The notes under the pieces are model-generated. The model made no database searches. It was given only the letters and a program-made list of their open reading frames with translations, and was not told the origin of the DNA. Made by a program: the position numbers and the translations under genes. 35,331 nt of DNA from Clostridia bacterium (GTDB lineage Bacteria; Bacillota; Clostridia; Oscillospirales; CAG-272): contig JAFQPI010000071.1 in the NCBI GenBank assembly GCA_017411805.1, forward strand, positions 1 to 35,331, in the 5' to 3' direction. Of the stretch, positions 1-35,030 are shown one piece after another (the stretch's first letter is position 1; the number at the start of each line of letters is the position of its first letter).

Positions 1-3000
1 AAAATAGCATTGATACCGTAGCAGAAGGCGGTGTGGTAGCCGTTGCTGCCGCGAATGGTGGCGCCGTCCACTGTCAGGTGGCCACCCTCCATTTTAATAA
101 CACTGTTCACAAAATTCAGAGTGCCGCCCGCATAGGTCAGACTACCGGGACCGTGGATATAGAGACTGGAATTGGCAGCGTCTGTCAATGTGATCAACTG
201 AATATAGTATTTCAGATCATAGTTTCCGGTCAACGGACAGCGGAATACCGCATCGCCCAGCAGGTTCAAGTCCTTTGTTCCCCGCACCACAATGGCGTTC
301 CTTGTAATTCCGCCGGGCTCTTTTTCCTCATCATGAGGAATCATAGGCAGGATATCCTCCACATTACCAAGCGCCACGTAGCGGATGTCGTTGCTTTCCA
401 GCGCGGTTTTCAGCTCGATATAGCTATAGCACCACGCAGGATTGTTGGCATTCTCACCGACATCGCTTGGGAACTGCGCGGTGAAGGTGATGACTACTTC
501 GATAATATCGTCTGCGCCGGCATATGCGCAGGTATAGGTGTATGTATTTGCGGGAATGCCTGAAAATTCAAAGGACATGGTTTCGGGAGGCGCGAACTTA
601 TAGCCGTCCTTTGCGTGAACGATCAGGAACATCTTATACTGCTTGCCCGCGCGGAATACCGGCTCCGTTACCTTATATTCCGTGTCAACCGAGTACTCCG
701 CATCCACTTCATACCAGCTCTTGGTCTGAAGGGGGATCTGATAATGGGCATAGCTTGAAGTGCGCAGGTACACATTGCTGTCCCAATCTCTGGTGGATTT
801 CGTCTGGTTGGGCACAAACATGCCGTCCACCACAACCGAGCTTACCGTATCCGAAGTATCGATAAAGTAAGGGATTTTGATGTGCAGCGTCGTTCTGGCG
901 GCATTAAAGGTATATTCCCAGTTTGTCGGCGTCTCGTTATTTGCACGGACAAAGATATTCTCAGCGAACTTGTAACCGTCAAAGGCGGTAAACTCATAGT
1001 TATAGAAATAGCTGTTTCCGCCAACAAATTTGCTCCCGGTCACCAGGCGGTTACCCGAACCGTCCGTCCAATAGCGGTCGGTCATTTCAGAGTTATTGTA
1101 CGCCCACACGCCATTGTCGATGGAGACCATGCCGCCGTCCACCGGTGCACGCATCTCATAGAAACGGAAGTTGACGATGTCATCATAGGTACGCTCACCG
1201 CCAAGCGTAAACGCAAAGGTCACCTTGACAACCGAGGTTTCCTGATAGAGTTCAATGCTGCTCGTATACTCATGGTCATACAGGCCCGTTAGCTTTACGG
1301 GGATATCCTCGGATGTAAAGGCATAGCCGTCCTTCGGATCGACGTTGAAGCTGATGCTGTAGGTTCTGCCCGCCTCAAAGACCTGTCCGCCGTAATTGAT
1401 CGAGCGGCCTTCTTCGTCTTTCCAGCTGCAGGTCTGATTGTCGATCACGCGGTACTTATGCGCGCCGGAGATATCTTCCTCCAGATCGCTGCCGTCAACG
1501 TACTGGATATACTCACCGACGACAGGCACGGGAAGTCCGCTGAGAGAAATGCCTGTGATGGGCATCGTCTGATCCTCTTTGAAGATCGCGTACAAATATT
1601 CAGGTCCCGCGCAGGTGAAGGAATACTCTGCGTCGGTGGAGATGGTATAGCCCTTCGTTCCCTTTCTCCACTCCACGAAGCGGTAGCCCGCGTCAGGCTT
1701 CGCCTTTACGGTAACGCTTGTGCCTTGAATTGCATTCTCGGTATAGCCGCTACTCGACCAGTCGAAGGTGTCGCCGGTGTTCTTCATATACACCTGACCG
1801 CCGCTGTCGCCTTCGTCAAGCGTTTCATTATAGACGTAGGCGCCGATCGGCCAGATCTGCGTAGAGACTTCAGCCTCCTTGACGGGGCTTTCGTTGTAAA
1901 CGCTGTCTCGCACGTATTTCGACCCGGTTGCCTGCACCTTGAAGAACCACCCATCCTCGGGATTCGCCTTTCCGCTGAAATCAAATTGCGACTCGGTCGT
2001 CGTCCAATGGGCATACGCGCCACCGTTGGCTTGATACAGGTAGATGGTATATCCGTTCGCGCCGGAAACGTCATTCCAATCGGCCAGGATGCCATTCCAG
2101 CTTAGTCCGGTGGGCGCTTCCAGCTTGGTGTAGGGGCTGGAATACTTAAAGGAAACCGTGTCTTCGTATCCGGTGACGCCCTTGGGCGCAATATCGACCT
2201 TGATGGTTCCGCTATCCTTCTTGTATTCGTTCAGTTGCGCCTCCAGATCGTAGCTTGTGGAAGTAAGGCCGGTCTCTGACTTAAAAAGTCCATTGTCCGC
2301 CCAGATCGTCAGATCGTAGGATGTTGCGCCGGAAACGGCATCCCACTTCAGCGCGCCTGTATCGTCCAATCTGACATTGAGCGTCGTTCCGCCCGTCAGC
2401 GTTTGCGGTACAACACCAACGCCATCTGCATAACCCTTACGGGGGCTTTCGTTGTACTCACTATCTCTGTGTGTTTCTACGTTGATGGCCTTGACTTTGA
2501 AGAACCATCCGTCCTTTATAGCGTTTGCCGCAACGGCGATGCTTTCAAAATTGAAGCTCGACTCGGTCGTAGACCAGTGGGTAAACGCTCCGCCGGTGGC
2601 CTGATACAGATAAATGTCGTATTCAGTTGCCCCCGGAACATCCTCCCACTCGGCAACCATACCGTTCCAACGGAGGTTAGCGGGAGCTTCCAGCTTGGGA
2701 TAGGGACTGCTGTACAGGAAATAGGCGGAGTCTCCGCCTCCGGAGCCGCCCCGGGCATTAACGGTCACTTGCACAGTTCCGGAGTCTTTTTTGAATTGGT
2801 CTAACTTTGCCTCCAGATCGTAGCTGGTAGAAGTGAGGCCTGTTTCATTCTTGAAAAGGCCGTTATCCGTCCAAATAGACAGATCGTAAGAGGTTGCGCC
2901 GGGAACTGCCGTCCAGGTCAATACGCCTGCATCGTCCACGGTAAACCGAATGATTCCGTTGTCACCCCATTTACTTTCGGGGCGTACCCCGCTGTAGGAG

Positions 3001-3110
3001 GCAACACCGTCTGTCGCTGACACCGTGATCAAAGTCAACGGCGCAACCGAAAGCACCATCACCAGCGCGAGCAGAATTGACATGAGCTTTGACTTAAATT
3101 TCGTTTTCAT
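1..3110 (-). CDS. Large secreted multi-repeat surface protein, N-terminal 1036 residues (partial)
   Basis: The minus-strand reading frame is open from the ATG at 3110 to the left edge with no stop, so the C-terminus lies outside the window. An AAGGAG site precedes the ATG. Residues 1-33 form a signal peptide (MKTKFKSK, hydrophobic core, ...TVSA). Two fibronectin-III/Ig-like repeat pairs follow: the motifs TSTSYDLEA and WxGxxAxWxDVxGAxxYxIYLYQA recur about 170 residues apart. Next comes an InlB/Listeria-Bacteroides-type repeat (KAKPDAGYRFVEW ... YAIFKE). Several modules built around KDGYxFxxE/ vTFtF follow. The last visible part (GPGSLTYAGGTLNFVNS...VDGATIRG) looks like the start of a right-handed beta-helix. 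The family role is adhesion or cell-surface carbohydrate binding; the ligand is unknown. No LPXTG or SLH anchor is visible because the end is missing. The gene is probably controlled by the adjacent membrane LuxR regulator. Confidence 0.85.
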   Translation of the reverse strand, partial: MKTKFKSKLMSILLALVMVLSVAPLTLITVSATDGVASYSGVRPESKWGDNGIIRFTVDDAGVLTWTAVPGATSYDLSIWTDNGLFKNETGLTSTSYDLEAKLDQFKKDSGTVQVTVNARGGSGGGDSAYFLYSSPYPKLEAPANLRWNGMVAEWEDVPGATEYDIYLYQATGGAFTHWSTTESSFNFESIAVAANAIKDGWFFKVKAINVETHRDSEYNESPRKGYADGVGVVPQTLTGGTTLNVRLDDTGALKWDAVSGATSYDLTIWADNGLFKSETGLTSTSYDLEAQLNEYKKDSGTIKVDIAPKGVTGYEDTVSFKYSSPYTKLEAPTGLSWNGILADWNDVSGANGYTIYLYQANGGAYAHWTTTESQFDFSGKANPEDGWFFKVQATGSKYVRDSVYNESPVKEAEVSTQIWPIGAYVYNETLDEGDSGGQVYMKNTGDTFDWSSSGYTENAIQGTSVTVKAKPDAGYRFVEWRKGTKGYTISTDAEYSFTCAGPEYLYAIFKEDQTMPITGISLSGLPVPVVGEYIQYVDGSDLEEDISGAHKYRVIDNQTCSWKDEEGRSINYGGQVFEAGRTYSISFNVDPKDGYAFTSEDIPVKLTGLYDHEYTSSIELYQETSVVKVTFAFTLGGERTYDDIVNFRFYEMRAPVDGGMVSIDNGVWAYNNSEMTDRYWTDGSGNRLVTGSKFVGGNSYFYNYEFTAFDGYKFAENIFVRANNETPTNWEYTFNAARTTLHIKIPYFIDTSDTVSSVVVDGMFVPNQTKSTRDWDSNVYLRTSSYAHYQIPLQTKSWYEVDAEYSVDTEYKVTEPVFRAGKQYKMFLIVHAKDGYKFAPPETMSFEFSGIPANTYTYTCAYAGADDIIEVVITFTAQFPSDVGENANNPAWCYSYIELKTALESNDIRYVALGNVEDILPMIPHDEEKEPGGITRNAIVVRGTKDLNLLGDAVFRCPLTGNYDLKYYIQLITLTDAANSSLYIHGPGSLTYAGGTLNFVNSVIKMEGGHLTVDGATIRGSNGYHTAFCYGINAI

Positions 3111-3183: not shown

Positions 3184-3260
3184 ATTTTATCATATATATG
3201 ATAAAATGTCATTCACCCATTAGGGTGATTTAGTGGTGATTTAGGGTGAGTCGAGGGTGA
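3184..3260 (-). promoter_or_regulatory. Promoter and phased operator array of the large surface protein
   Basis: On the minus strand a -35 ATGACA (3212-3207) and a -10 TAAAAT (3189-3184) are separated by 17 bp. Directly upstream are four boxes TCACCC/TCACCA ending at 3223, 3234, 3244 and 3255, so the spacing is 11, 10 and 11 bp, one helical turn each. A fifth, inverted box GGGTGA (3218-3213) abuts the -35. The spacer between -35 and -10 is part of a 24-bp perfect palindrome (3184-3207, centre CATATATATG). The layout is that of an activator array next to a core promoter, with a second dyad inside the core. That the neighbouring LuxR protein binds it is an inference from position. Confidence 0.6.
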
Positions 3261-3277: not shown

Positions 3278-3308
3278 AAAAAAGGCGGTAGTTTTTGCAA
3301 CCACCGCC
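3278..3308 (-). terminator. Rho-independent terminator of the luxR-type gene
   Basis: Read on the minus strand, GGCGGT (3308-3303) pairs with ACCGCC (3289-3284) and is followed by a run of T (3283-3278). It lies 11 bp after the regulator stop codon, so it separates that gene from the surface-protein gene and gives the latter its own promoter. Confidence 0.7.
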
Positions 3309-3318
3309 TAAATAACGA

Positions 3319-4278
3319 TTATTTTTGGAACATAGCGTAAATCTCATCTCTGCCCGATACGCCGAGGGCTTTATAGAGCATACCCGTGTGCGTTTTTACC
3401 GTGTTCTCCGATAGGTGAAGCTCGGCGGCAATCTCTTTTCGGCTCTTGTAATCGAGTATTCTTTCAAGAATATCCATCTGTCTTGTGGAAAGGACGGTAT
3501 CTTCGGGGAGTGAGTCAAGAATTGTTTTTATCTTTTCTGCTCTCGTCATATTATCTACGATAATGATCGGCGCTTTTTCCTCCACGATAACGGGAGGGGG
3601 AACTTCGTTCTTGTGAACGTAATCTTGGAGCATCCAATATACGAAGAAGAATACGAACTCACTCATAAGGTAGGAAGCGGAAAGGAACTCAAAATTCCAA
3701 GTGACAAGCTTTTCCACGAGCCACATACCGATATTGCCGAACACTACGGCTAACATAAGTCCTGCGATCTTCTGTGATTTTCCGTTGTTTTTCTTGAGCG
3801 ATATACTGATTACCACAAGCATTGCTACAAAGTATCCGAGAACGTATATCAAATTAACGGGGTGAAGGAAGCCATATTCCTTAATGAGCTTTGCCGCGCC
3901 GTCAGCATACGTCAACTCAACGCTCTTGTAGTACCAATCAAGGCGACCTGTTGTCAGCACAAGTCCGAACATCAGCATAGCCGCAGCGATGAGCACGTAT
4001 TTGACCCACTTCTTGTAGGTAAATCCGCAAAGACCTGATATGATCATAAACATACAAAGCGGAACGAACACCTGCCCGAAGTATGCGATCTTGTTTGCCG
4101 CAAGCGCAAACTCGACCGTTTTCGAAAGCGACAGAAGCAGATATCCAAGATTTACAACACAAACAGAGAGGTAGAGAACAAAGAGCCAAGGCTCGTTTTG
4201 CGTTTTTCGTACGACCAGATAGTAGCCTACCGGCAATAAAAGCGACAAAGCAAAAATGACGCCATATGCGATTGTCAT
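3319..4278 (-). CDS. Membrane-embedded LuxR/GerE-family transcription regulator
   Basis: This 319-residue protein has about seven hydrophobic segments in residues 1-215 (first segment AYGVIFALSLLLPVGYYLVV), the arrangement of the 7TM sensor region found at the N-terminus of some histidine kinases. A proline-rich linker (residues ~227-245) leads to a LuxR-type helix-turn-helix at ~263-315 (STRQMDILERILDYKSRKEI ... LSENTVKTH). No receiver or kinase domain is present, so it is a one-component regulator tethered in the membrane. The start is set by AAGGAGGTGG upstream of the ATG. The gene is followed by a terminator and then by a promoter with phased repeats for the secreted protein. The likely role is sensing an extracellular or membrane signal and activating the adhesin-like gene; the signal is unknown. 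Confidence 0.85.
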   Translation of the reverse strand: MTIAYGVIFALSLLLPVGYYLVVRKTQNEPWLFVLYLSVCVVNLGYLLLSLSKTVEFALAANKIAYFGQVFVPLCMFMIISGLCGFTYKKWVKYVLIAAAMLMFGLVLTTGRLDWYYKSVELTYADGAAKLIKEYGFLHPVNLIYVLGYFVAMLVVISISLKKNNGKSQKIAGLMLAVVFGNIGMWLVEKLVTWNFEFLSASYLMSEFVFFFVYWMLQDYVHKNEVPPPVIVEEKAPIIIVDNMTRAEKIKTILDSLPEDTVLSTRQMDILERILDYKSRKEIAAELHLSENTVKTHTGMLYKALGVSGRDEIYAMFQK

Positions 4279-4346: not shown

Positions 4347-4440
4347 GCCATTTTTCTGCTTTTGAAATGGAAGCCGTACAGAAAGGCAAAAAGTGATGGT
4401 TTGTATAGCGAAAACAAAGTCAAGCGTCATTTTTTGCCCA

Positions 4441-4640
4441 ATAGATTTAACGAACTCCGGGCTGGAAAGCTTTTTTGCTACGCTCAAAAAAGAATTGACA
4501 TTTCGGAGATAATATGCTACAATAGAGATGTAAAGACGGATCTGTACCGCTACATAGAGCTTTTCTATAACAGAAAACGCCGGCATAGTACCTTGGGTTA
4601 TATGAGTCCCGTGGCATACCGTCTCGCAAACTCGCAGTAA
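4441..4640 (+). pseudogene. IS3-family (IS150-like) transposase, C-terminal remnant
   Basis: The frame from 4441 gives SGLESFFATLKKEL, the conserved end of the IS3-family integrase core. After one in-frame TAA (about 4513) and a one-base frameshift near 4525, the sequence continues as TDLYRYIELFYNRKRRHSTLGYMSP, the classical IS3 C-terminus. Only about 65 of roughly 280-300 residues remain, and no intact terminal repeats were found. It is a decayed insertion sequence at the left edge of the rearranged toxin region. Confidence in family is high because both motifs are diagnostic and in the right order. Confidence 0.85.
4495..4523 (+). promoter_or_regulatory. Candidate sigma-A promoter inside the IS3 remnant
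   Basis: TTGACA (4495-4500), a 17-bp spacer and an extended -10 TGC-TACAAT (4518-4523) point toward the lipoprotein gene at 4837. The match is close to consensus but overlaps old coding sequence. An inverted repeat downstream could terminate its transcript, so activity is uncertain. Confidence 0.35.
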
Positions 4641-6784: not shown

Positions 6785-7791
6785 GACATAATAGCCGAAG
6801 AATGGGGCGATAATCTTCTTATCTACCTCTATGACTCAAACGGCTCGCCGATGGGTATGCAGTACCGCACGAGCTCGATGGCTGAGGACGTATTTTATAC
6901 CTTCTGGTTCGAGAAGAACCTGCAGGGCGATATCGTCGCGGTCTATAACTCGGCAGGAATAAAGGTTATCTCCTATTCCTATGATGCCTGGGGCAACTGT
7001 ATAACCAAACATCACAACTTAACCGGAACCAATTCCTACGCGACTTTCAACCCCTTCCGCTACAGAGGCTACTACTTTGACTCTGAACTTGGGTTCTATT
7101 ACCTCAATAGCAGATACTATAATCCAATAATCGGCCGATTCCTCAACGCCGATGTATATGTAAGTACTGGGCAAGGCTTGCTGGGTTACAATATGTTTGC
7201 GTATTGCAACAATAGTCCAATAATATATATTGATCCGTTTGGCGAAGATACTATATATGTTTGTAGCTTTAAAGATCTTGAGGTGGTGGGACATGCATTC
7301 TTGCTTATACAAGATGAAAACGGAGTTTGGTATTATACCGATTATGGTTATTATGCAGATGAAACTGTTCAAACATTTAGTTTGGAGGATTATTCTAATG
7401 ATCCATATGAATATTTAAAAGCAAAACACATAGAAACAAAAACTATTACAAAAAAATATTTATTTGGGTTAATCACTATTACTAAAACTTATACCGTAAA
7501 TGCATACACATCCTTATACATAGAAGGCGATTTTTCTGAGGCACTAGAATTAGCCAAAGAATATCAAGAGACTGGATATGGCGAATACAAAGTATTGTCC
7601 ACAATTGCCTACATTATGCACAAGACTTGCTTAAAAATGGGCAATGCACTAGCGATACAATGCAAAAAGCCATATCTCATACTTATGGGATCGTGCCGGC
7701 CTTATACATTCCCAATTTGCTTTCATATAGAGTGCGTTCGATAAGAACTCATAGATACCCTCAATTTCCTTTTGCTATTAGACATTATTAA
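6785..7791 (+). pseudogene. Orphan Rhs core fragment with frameshifted C-terminal toxin
   Basis: The frame 6785-7744 starts with DIIAEEWGDNLLIYLYDSNG and continues through the Rhs-associated core (RYRGYYFDSELGFYYLNSRYYNP ... GRFLNADVYVSTGQGLLGYN ... DPFGED). It then has a unique tail from about residue 133 of the ATG at 6851. There is no ribosome binding site, and the upstream Rhs piece (AYGQLYR) is out of frame. The tail contains GHAFLL and, after a one-base slip at 7603, NCLHYAQDLLKNG in the next frame, which runs on to a stop at 7789-7791. In the frame as it stands the protein ends at 7744 without that motif. A His in GHA followed by NC-x-H is the order of circularly permuted papain-like hydrolases, so the toxin may be such an enzyme. 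It is either inactivated or affected by a sequencing error. Confidence 0.8.
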
Positions 7792-11691: not shown

Positions 11692-12696
11692 ATGGGCATG
11701 CAGTACCGCACGAGCTCGATGGCTGAGGACGTATTTTATACCTTCTGGTTCGAGAAGAATCTTCAAGGTGATATCGTCGCGGTCTATAACTCGGCAGGCA
11801 CAAAACTTGTCTCCTACACTTACGACGCCTGGGGCAACTGTATAACTACACACCACAGCGTCTCCGGCGCCAATTCCTACGCAACGTTCAACCCCTTCCG
11901 TTACAGAGGATACTACTACGATACCGAACTTGGATTCTATTTTCTCAATAGCAGATACTACAATCCCGAATGGGGTAGGTTTATTAACGCCGACGTTTAC
12001 GTAATCACAGGACAAGGTCTGCTTGGCTACAATATGTTTGCGTATTGTGGGAATAATCCAATAGTTTTCATTGATCCAGAAGGAACCGAATATAGAGTAG
12101 TGGGTGCGGATTTCCAGTTCGACATATCTTTTGGGTGCGCATCAGCGGGTTTGGAAATCATTTGTTATTGGGATGTTGAAGAATGCTCCAATGGCGGAGT
12201 TGTTATTGCAGGATATATATATAATGGTGCTTCTGTACCGGTGAACAATCCTATTGTTGCGGATATTATTACTACAATAACTGATAATTTGGGTAGTATT
12301 CGTGAAGGCAGCGAAGATACATTGATGATGGTAGGTGCGATGCTAAGTAAAGAATTTTCCATTAGCGTGTCTGGATTGTTGATAACAGGAAATGAAGATT
12401 TTATTAATACTGAGTCATATCTTGGACCTTTTACATCAGTTAACGTGAAATTAGGTAAAGTAAGTGGAGCATATGCATATTCCGATTCGTGCATAGCTTA
12501 TGCACTAGGTTACAATTTTGTAGGACAACCAGCAAAAGTATCCTGGGGAATATCTTATACTACATATCAACCGCTTTTTGAAATAACAGTTGGTCAAAAT
12601 AATAATGTCGCTAATTCTGCAACGAATGTCAATAATTGTGGAGGAGGTTATATGAGATGTCCCGCCCGCGGAAGATTATTTGCGCAGTGCTGTTAG
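11692..12696 (+). CDS. Orphan Rhs core with C-terminal effector domain
   Basis: The 334-residue frame begins MGMQYRTSSMAEDVFYTFWF within Rhs core and has no ribosome binding site, so it is probably a silent cassette rather than an expressed gene. The core ends at about residue 130 (GRFINADVYVITGQGLLGYN ... FIDPEG). The unique tail (residues ~131-334) is Gly/Ser- and aliphatic-rich with strands such as ADFQFDISFGCASAGLEIICY and VSWGISYTTYQPLFEITVG. It lacks nuclease or deaminase motifs. The last 13 residues read through the ribosome binding site and start of the next gene. A membrane-acting toxin is plausible because the next gene encodes a membrane protein. Core DNA is nearly identical to the copy at 13589. 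Confidence 0.75.
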   Translation: MGMQYRTSSMAEDVFYTFWFEKNLQGDIVAVYNSAGTKLVSYTYDAWGNCITTHHSVSGANSYATFNPFRYRGYYYDTELGFYFLNSRYYNPEWGRFINADVYVITGQGLLGYNMFAYCGNNPIVFIDPEGTEYRVVGADFQFDISFGCASAGLEIICYWDVEECSNGGVVIAGYIYNGASVPVNNPIVADIITTITDNLGSIREGSEDTLMMVGAMLSKEFSISVSGLLITGNEDFINTESYLGPFTSVNVKLGKVSGAYAYSDSCIAYALGYNFVGQPAKVSWGISYTTYQPLFEITVGQNNNVANSATNVNNCGGGYMRCPARGRLFAQCC

Positions 12697-34592: not shown

Positions 34593-35030
34593 TTATTCAT
34601 ATCTATCTTCAACATCGGTCAAGCCGAGCAGATAATCGATGCTTACATTATAAATTCTTGAAAGTTTGATCAAAAGTTCGGTATTCAACATGATTTCACC
34701 TGTTTCATACTTTGAATATCCCATTTGAGACATATTGATCTTTTTCGCTATTTGAGTCTGATTTAGCTTATGTTTCATACGAATTTCGCGCAGTCTGTTT
34801 CCCCGATCTTCTGCCGATACGGTATGACGTACAACGCTGCGGGTTTCTCCAAGCAAAAAATCCACGCTTACGTCATAATAAGCGGCAAGCACGATGACTC
34901 TGTGTACGGGAATTTTGTTTTGCCCCGTTTCATATTTTCCATATGCCGTATAGGTTATTCCAAGGTATTCTGCCACTTCTTTTTGCAACTTGTCTCTGTC
35001 TTCGCGTATGTCTCTGATGTGCGGATACAT
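34593..35030 (-). CDS. Tandem-XRE (two HTH_3 domains) transcription regulator
   Basis: This 145-residue protein consists of two complete XRE helix-turn-helix domains. The first is at residues ~6-61 (REDRDKLQKEVAEYLGITYT, GKYETGQNKIP, SVDFLLG). The second is at ~80-135 (REIRMKHKLNQTQIAKKINM, SKYETGEIMLN, SIDYLLGLTD). There is no dimerisation or sensor domain. AGAGGTAAT precedes the ATG at 35030. Repressors of this two-domain type are common near mobile elements and stress genes. It is divergent from the broken gene at 35153 and may have controlled that. Confidence 0.85.
   Translation of the reverse strand: MYPHIRDIREDRDKLQKEVAEYLGITYTAYGKYETGQNKIPVHRVIVLAAYYDVSVDFLLGETRSVVRHTVSAEDRGNRLREIRMKHKLNQTQIAKKINMSQMGYSKYETGEIMLNTELLIKLSRIYNVSIDYLLGLTDVEDRYE

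Follow-up and report, generated by a model that had tools for sequence, protein, structure and literature searches.

In a gut bacterium, a phased array of short TCACC boxes lies between the gene for a membrane-bound regulator of the LuxR type and the start of a gene for a large repeat protein, and it is very probably the operator of that regulator. We hold this because the layout is conserved behind related luxR genes, because residue 296 of the recognition helix tracks the box letters across independent switches, and because the held-out Thr and Met loci fit the same relation. Here, "the window" refers to the whole stretch of DNA that was analysed (35,331 nucleotides), and luxR to the regulator gene within it.

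The box array in the window

On the minus strand, the order is luxR, its terminator, four boxes, an inverted box, a promoter, and the start of the large repeat-protein gene. The direct TCACC boxes lie at 3256..3260 (box 1), 3245..3249 (box 2), 3235..3239 (box 3, where the next letter is A and not C, giving TCACCA), and 3224..3228 (box 4), that is, with box-to-box spacings of 11, 10, and 11 bp. Box 4 is the left arm of a promoter-proximal palindrome, TCACCCTAATGGGTGA, whose right arm is a TCACCC copy on the plus strand (3213..3218) that adjoins the −35. The first-pass annotation had reported these boxes at 11/10/11 bp with an inverted copy at the −35, and its coordinates and spacing are exact.

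The pattern TCACC-N5/6-TCACC has three matches in the window, all of them in the array, where 0.07 are expected from shuffles, and the de novo phased-repeat score of the 260 nt 3′ of luxR was reached by none of 200 dinucleotide shuffles. The three-box pattern occurs once in the window's own 2.46-Mb assembly (~85% complete), at the array only. Nine of 146 genomes, its own included, match this pattern, as do nine for a reversed control pattern, and within the same 146 genomes it lies 3′ of luxR in the window and in G044 only; away from such loci, relatives have the pattern no more often than chance would give. A regulon-wide role for the box was therefore dropped, since the pattern is single in its own assembly and at control frequency in relatives. 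An origin from a phage or mobile virus was also rejected, a scan of viral contigs having given 59 stretches with the pattern and no relatives.

The membrane LuxR protein and its neighbours

The proposed reader of the array is encoded by luxR (3319..4278, minus strand), a protein of 319 aa with a HisKA_7TM domain at residues 8-214 and a LuxR/GerE helix-turn-helix (HTH) domain at residues 262-316. The match to Pfam HisKA_7TM, a seven-helix membrane domain, is above the curated cut-off (E 9.9e-14), and the match to the GerE HTH (PF00196; E 4.4e-13) scores 49.1 bits against a cut-off of 23.5, which places the protein among the GerE-type HTH regulators. Pfam detects no receiver domain in the window LuxR, which sets it apart from the response regulators of the NarL/FixJ type. 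The codons for K295, T296, and H297 are found at 3388..3396 (minus strand); of the three, T296 is the one that follows the box letters. Going by the end points of the NCBIfam NarL match, which spans equal lengths (window 260-312, model 153-205), T296 corresponds to NarL position 189, provided that the alignment is ungapped. The intrinsic terminator of luxR (3283..3309, minus strand), an 11-pair stem with a T run behind it, separates the gene from the array.

Other neighbours are worth recording. A short ORF 5′ of luxR (4362-4640, plus strand) resembles, by eye, the C-terminus of an IS3-type transposase. Farther along the plus strand, the ORFs at 6851-7744 and 11692-12696 have a common N-terminal RHS-type stretch and unlike C-termini, with small ORFs after each, and have the appearance of Rhs tip cassettes in a locus for polymorphic toxins; the Pfam cut-off for RHS_repeat is exceeded in the ORF at 11692-12696 only, not in that at 6851-7744.

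Conservation behind related luxR genes

An initial search of 146 relatives found arrays 3′ of luxR orthologs in G043, G044, G107, and G005. A scan of GTDB genomes with one peptide pattern extended the sample to the best 80 of 168 relatives, which are mostly from ruminant and deer gut metagenome assemblies; loci that duplicated discovery loci were left out of further counts. Several loci end too soon 3′ of luxR for an array to be judged, and scoring covered the 72 loci, the window included, with at least 150 nt in that direction. The phased-repeat score accepts any 5-mer with at least two G/C, ignores the box letters, and was compared with 200 shuffles per locus. A score of at least 4 was reached by 36 of the 72 regions 3′ of luxR versus none of 67 regions 5′ of it, and the shuffle p was ≤0.01 in 37 of the 72. 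Autoregulation through boxes 5′ of luxR was rejected on the same measure, the upstream region scoring 0 in the window and none of the other 66 reaching 4.

The layout common to many 7TM-LuxR loci is a terminator, phased boxes, an inverted box, and a −10 about 28 nt farther on. The first-pass annotation had staked its reading on conservation in orthologous loci and had suggested looking beside other 7TM-LuxR and repeat-protein genes. Such arrays were indeed found there, with layout, phasing, and −10 distance kept at many loci, and with some loci lacking an array. In one locus missed by the score (L050), an ACACCC array lies farther downstream, at +319 to +385. No array was seen in the stretches examined 3′ of luxR in L051, L082, L084, and L099, and L083 has a lone palindrome there with no direct-box array. 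In remoter 7TM-LuxR proteins, where the 296 site is Phe or Tyr, no such array is seen by eye, and two Thr proteins of other architecture (L030 and L031, of 500 and 485 aa) likewise have none.

Three side observations concern these genes. In L051, what looks by eye like the start of an insertion element occupies the region ~70-230 nt 3′ of luxR, where the array would sit. Within genera, the distribution of close LuxR relatives is patchy, as one would see for an accessory element (7 of 29 genomes in g28, 2 of 12 in g49, and 4 of 21 in g38). The luxR genes of L077 (TAG), L093 (TAG), and L097 (TGA) each carry one in-frame stop, and their arrays are still there. We rejected a changed genetic code for these three, which look like broken genes because two of the three stops are TAG and because they fall in a region where Gln or Trp is conserved.

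Promoter geometry

The promoter of the putative surface-protein gene (3184..3212, minus strand) follows directly after the inverted box in the direction of transcription. It reads ATGACA-17-TAAAAT, with the −35 at 3212-3207 (a 4/6 match), a 17-nt spacer, and an extended −10, TGATAAAAT, in which TG precedes the hexamer at 3189-3184. A perfect 24-bp palindrome, ATTTTATCATATATATGATAAAAT (3184-3207), spans the spacer and the −10; relatives, judged by eye, do not retain it.

Across the 51 loci scanned, gaps between like boxes were 10, 11, 21, or 22 bp in 104 of 109 cases, in a scan that admitted partners at 9-12 and 20-23 bp alone. The automatic scan picked up an inverted arm in 38 of these loci, and in 31 of the 38 the best −10 hexamer begins 27-28 nt past it; in several of the other seven, a different hexamer was picked though TGATAAAAT or TGGTAAAAT sits at 28. 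From this distance it follows that the palindrome is centred at about −46 and the direct boxes at about −57, −67, and −78. Judged by eye, the −35 hexamers are mostly poor. A site by the −35, a fixed spacing to the −10, and a −35 that is poor by eye together make up the layout of a class II activator-dependent promoter, and it is this geometry that would fit the words "cooperative" and "activator" as applied by the first-pass annotation.

The same palindrome could be read as that of a repressor, with LuxR blocking RNA polymerase there and the upstream boxes loading protein. That the inverted arm touches the −35, and that the −35 of the window is a fair one (ATGACA), would suit such a role. The layout is nevertheless that of class II activation: the palindrome is centred at about −46, boxes occur upstream only, the extended −10 lies at a constant distance, and most −35 hexamers are poor. 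The membrane LuxR proteins characterised in Eggerthella lenta activate, according to the part of the source available (PMC9734109). We regard repression as quite unlikely and activation as the probable mode of action.

One might also ask whether the repeats are regulatory at all, since slippage can yield short direct repeats and the array could be a neutral tandem duplication or some other non-regulatory DNA element. Fixed phasing, a terminal inversion, a constant −10 distance, and co-variation with the protein (see below) speak against this, and by eye the spacers vary between loci while the boxes persist. Neutral duplication is largely excluded, and we give non-regulatory readings as a whole almost no credence.

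Box letters and the recognition helix

The box letters differ by locus (TCACCC, ACACCC, ATACC, and TTACC/CTACC), and the inverted arm mostly changes along with the direct boxes, although several Thr loci have an arm that ends in GGTGT or GGTGG. For the 55 of 81 loci with a phased identical NNACC pair, five held-out loci among them, the NN dinucleotide was compared with each well-filled column of the LuxR alignment. Residue 296, in the recognition helix, is the best column, with a normalised mutual information of 0.86 (0.52 for residue 304 and 0.49 for residue 300), and predicts the dinucleotide by majority in 51 of the 55 loci. In this set, Thr296 goes with TC in 32 loci and with CA in one (L107), giving the class Thr-TCACC; Met296 goes with AC in 12 of 12 (Met-ACACC), Leu296 with TT in two (Leu-TTACC), Lys296 with TT in three and TG in one (Lys-TTACC), and Trp296, in the automatic scan, with AT in two and AA in two (Trp-ATACC). 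The remainder of the recognition helix is highly variable in the Thr class. Each of RGIG6167, SIG644, and RGIG4132 holds two paralogs with unlike 296 residues and unlike boxes, their same-genome status being taken from the record title.

Shared ancestry was handled with a tree built by a quick method from the membrane part alone, without the HTH, for the 55 loci (18 of 52 inner branches starred). The residue classes are scattered over this tree, with 15 changes and, for Thr, at least eight forced by starred branches. Met and AC switch together in six of six independent pairs (sign test p 0.031), and Thr and TC in seven to eight of eight (p 0.008-0.016); in the starred-branch test, half of the support stands on few pairs. 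The residue-letter rule was also recorded before new loci were examined. All five held-out Thr and Met loci that could be tested fit it (Thr in L186, L192, L200, and L205; Met in L198), the Met locus L196 stopping after 14 nt and thus falling outside the test. The Lys rule fails in its exact form, because all five new Lys loci (L019, L138, L161, L165, and L166) carry TAGCC, not TTACC. The operator letters thus co-vary with the recognition helix, in the Lys class only in part.

Residue 296 may not be the sole determinant of the box letters and may share its role, because columns 304 and 300 carry signal too. Among Lys-type proteins, Ser300 seems, by eye, to accompany TAGCC and His or Asn300 TTACC; position 300 is a possible second part of the recognition code. 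We take DosR N183 and DegU N198 to be at the same position as residue 296. For DosR, base contacts by the lysine of the recognition helix and the residue after it have been described; for DegU, they have been modelled. In the parts of the two sources available, the core residues for DNA binding by DosR are K182, N183, and K179 (PMC5999986), and K194, K197, and N198 are given as modelled base contacts of DegU (PMC9263151).

The co-variation also bears on whether a different transcription factor reads the array, the proximity of luxR being incidental. Further HTH proteins are indeed encoded in the window (34593-35030), but the box letters track LuxR residue 296 in 55 loci and across independent switches, and pairs of loci with a close HTH and a distant membrane part have the same box class in nine of nine cases. 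We consider another reader very unlikely. The first-pass reading of an activator array tied to the adjacent membrane LuxR is thus supported by conserved layout, phasing, −10 distance, and recognition-helix co-variation.

Output genes

The gene past the array in the window (3..3110, minus strand) is cut by the contig end; its large product has a hydrophobic N-terminus and contains a B repeat of the InlB type (Pfam Flg_new_2, E 6.3e-9). The start of the gene, picked by eye, is an ATG 208 nt past the luxR stop. Elsewhere, the first gene past the array is of one of two kinds: its product is a large protein whose N-terminus is hydrophobic, like that of the window protein, or else a protein of ~145 aa. 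The latter was found in 22 loci by filter, of which 20 were aligned, and has no match in Pfam or NCBIfam; it is often first in the output operon (e.g., L059:1249-1704 and L103:7154-7585), and the family has two subgroups and an invariant LPGQ motif. A large ORF, or its start at the contig end, is present in all nine loci listed. Matches to Flg_new or Flg_new_2 are above the Pfam cut-off in the window protein, one L059 protein, and one L078 protein, and three further outputs tested gave sub-threshold Flg_new-type matches only. The output proteins are presumably located at the surface.

Mosaic loci and the exchange of modules

Comparison of whole loci at the DNA level reveals sharp mosaics. L059 and L078 are 85-100% identical to approximately window residue 222 of luxR and 45-65% identical thereafter, whereas L059 and the window show low identity first and then 85-100% across the HTH and terminator into the array. 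L059 and L067, in turn, show low identity to 160 nt past the stop, just beyond the −10, and then 75-100% over the leader and the 145-aa gene. The breakpoint lies at nt 660 for the window and L067, and at ~nt 660-680 for L063 and L096; L078 and L096 break in the same part as the latter pair with the opposite orientation of identity, and L093 and L076 break earlier. The breakpoint at the membrane/HTH junction coincides with a conserved MLQDYVH stretch.

Pairwise comparison covered 1,225 pairs of 50 loci, with a local score of at least 50 counted as array sharing. The nine pairs with a close HTH and a distant membrane part all have the same box class, and eight have a common array region; for the 12 pairs with a close membrane part and a distant HTH, array scores are 9-21 and the class is the same in six. 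HTH and array are common, with sensor and output unlike, in window/L063, L059/L063, L058/L076, and L058/L087; L058/L075 also have a common HTH and array and not the sensor, the output being unscored. Rank correlations show a modest excess of HTH-array given sensor (0.26) over sensor-array given HTH (0.16). A link of the output gene to the sensor or the HTH was rejected on this measure, the partial correlations being weak (0.18 and 0.17). Since the rank correlations are weak, the case for reassortment stands on the sharp mosaics. Their breakpoints fall at the membrane/HTH junction and immediately beyond the −10, and so show, as far as sequence can, that three parts have been reassorted, namely the sensor, the HTH with terminator, array, and promoter, and the output genes, with HTH and operator usually moving together.

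Chimeric metagenome assembly could mimic such a pattern; nearly all loci are metagenome-assembled, and the key mosaic, L059, starts at a contig end. The partners are, however, 83-96% identical and not ~100%, come from different samples, and lie mostly inside long contigs, and the breakpoint recurs in L059/L078, L063/L096, and window/L067. We judge an artefact of this kind unlikely.

Reassortment between loci gives a strong hint of modular rewiring. We incline slightly towards a reading of the loci as three-module plug-and-play circuits, in which recombination would swap specificity and target together and a one-residue-centred code would insulate paralogs. The modules would be a 7TM sensor, a cassette for specificity that joins HTH, terminator, array, and promoter, and an operon whose output is surface repeat proteins. 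Because the HTH is encoded at the 3′ end of luxR, beside its operator, a crossover at the membrane/HTH junction together with a second one past the −10 would exchange DNA specificity along with DNA target; any sensor could therefore be rewired to any output with function kept. If this is true, paralogs in one genome are insulated from each other by a small code centred on one residue.

On our main reading of the array itself, the HisKA_7TM membrane domain would sense a signal, and the HTH domains would dock on the promoter-proximal palindrome (centre ~−46) and also occupy the direct boxes stacked upstream on one helix face, residue 296 setting or tracking the first two box letters. At the promoter, whose −10 is extended and whose −35 is mostly poor, the docked LuxR could then contact RNA polymerase and turn on an operon whose products would be large repeat proteins, secreted or at the surface.

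Comparison with known systems

Gut bacteria have many membrane-spanning LuxR regulators, and the operator, promoter geometry, and residue-to-letter relation described here can be read from sequence. If our reading is right, the targets of such regulators become predictable, sets of mutually insulated regulator-operator pairs become available, and sensors can be rewired to surface proteins in evolution without a non-functional intermediate. We found no operator for membrane-spanning LuxR-type proteins in the open-access literature.

The closest known system is that of the 10-12-TM LuxR activators of Eggerthella. Dong et al. (2022) report, in the part of their paper available, the activation of dehydroxylase genes in E. 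lenta by 12-TM LuxR proteins encoded next to them (PMC9734109). As described there, the Coriobacteriia proteins (DadR, CadR, and HcdR of Eggerthella lenta) likewise join a membrane N-terminus to a LuxR HTH C-terminus, are encoded beside their single target, and have many diverse members. Activation of a neighbouring gene by a particular small molecule marks that family; what is seen in the window is a neighbouring promoter with phased boxes. The window family differs in its HisKA_7TM membrane domain, which by the model match does not have the 10-12 N-terminal TM helices of that family, in its Clostridia hosts, and in its targets, which are large repeat proteins instead of dehydroxylases. An operator array and a residue-to-letter relation are seen here, whereas the available part of PMC9734109 names no operator motif for the E. 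lenta proteins and gives no description of their operator.

Regulators of the NarL/FixJ type (NarL, DosR, DegU, and LiaR) have the same GerE HTH, and the residue that varies here sits at the NarL 189 position; its neighbours are base contacts in DosR and DegU, according to the portions available of PMC5999986 and PMC9263151. In the window family, a membrane domain replaces the receiver, and the arrays are long, phased, and end in a palindrome.

MalT, a large soluble ATP-dependent protein of the LuxR family, acts at enterobacterial maltose promoters, where its boxes are several short direct repeats upstream of the −35 bound by a LuxR-family HTH. The array is alike in placing a LuxR-family HTH on direct repeats, although its box letters and layout differ. 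As for the exchange of specificity, recombination in HsdS of type I restriction systems swaps target-recognition domains within an otherwise kept gene, whereas in the loci described here the recognition domain appears to move with its own DNA target, which adjoins the 3′ end of the gene.
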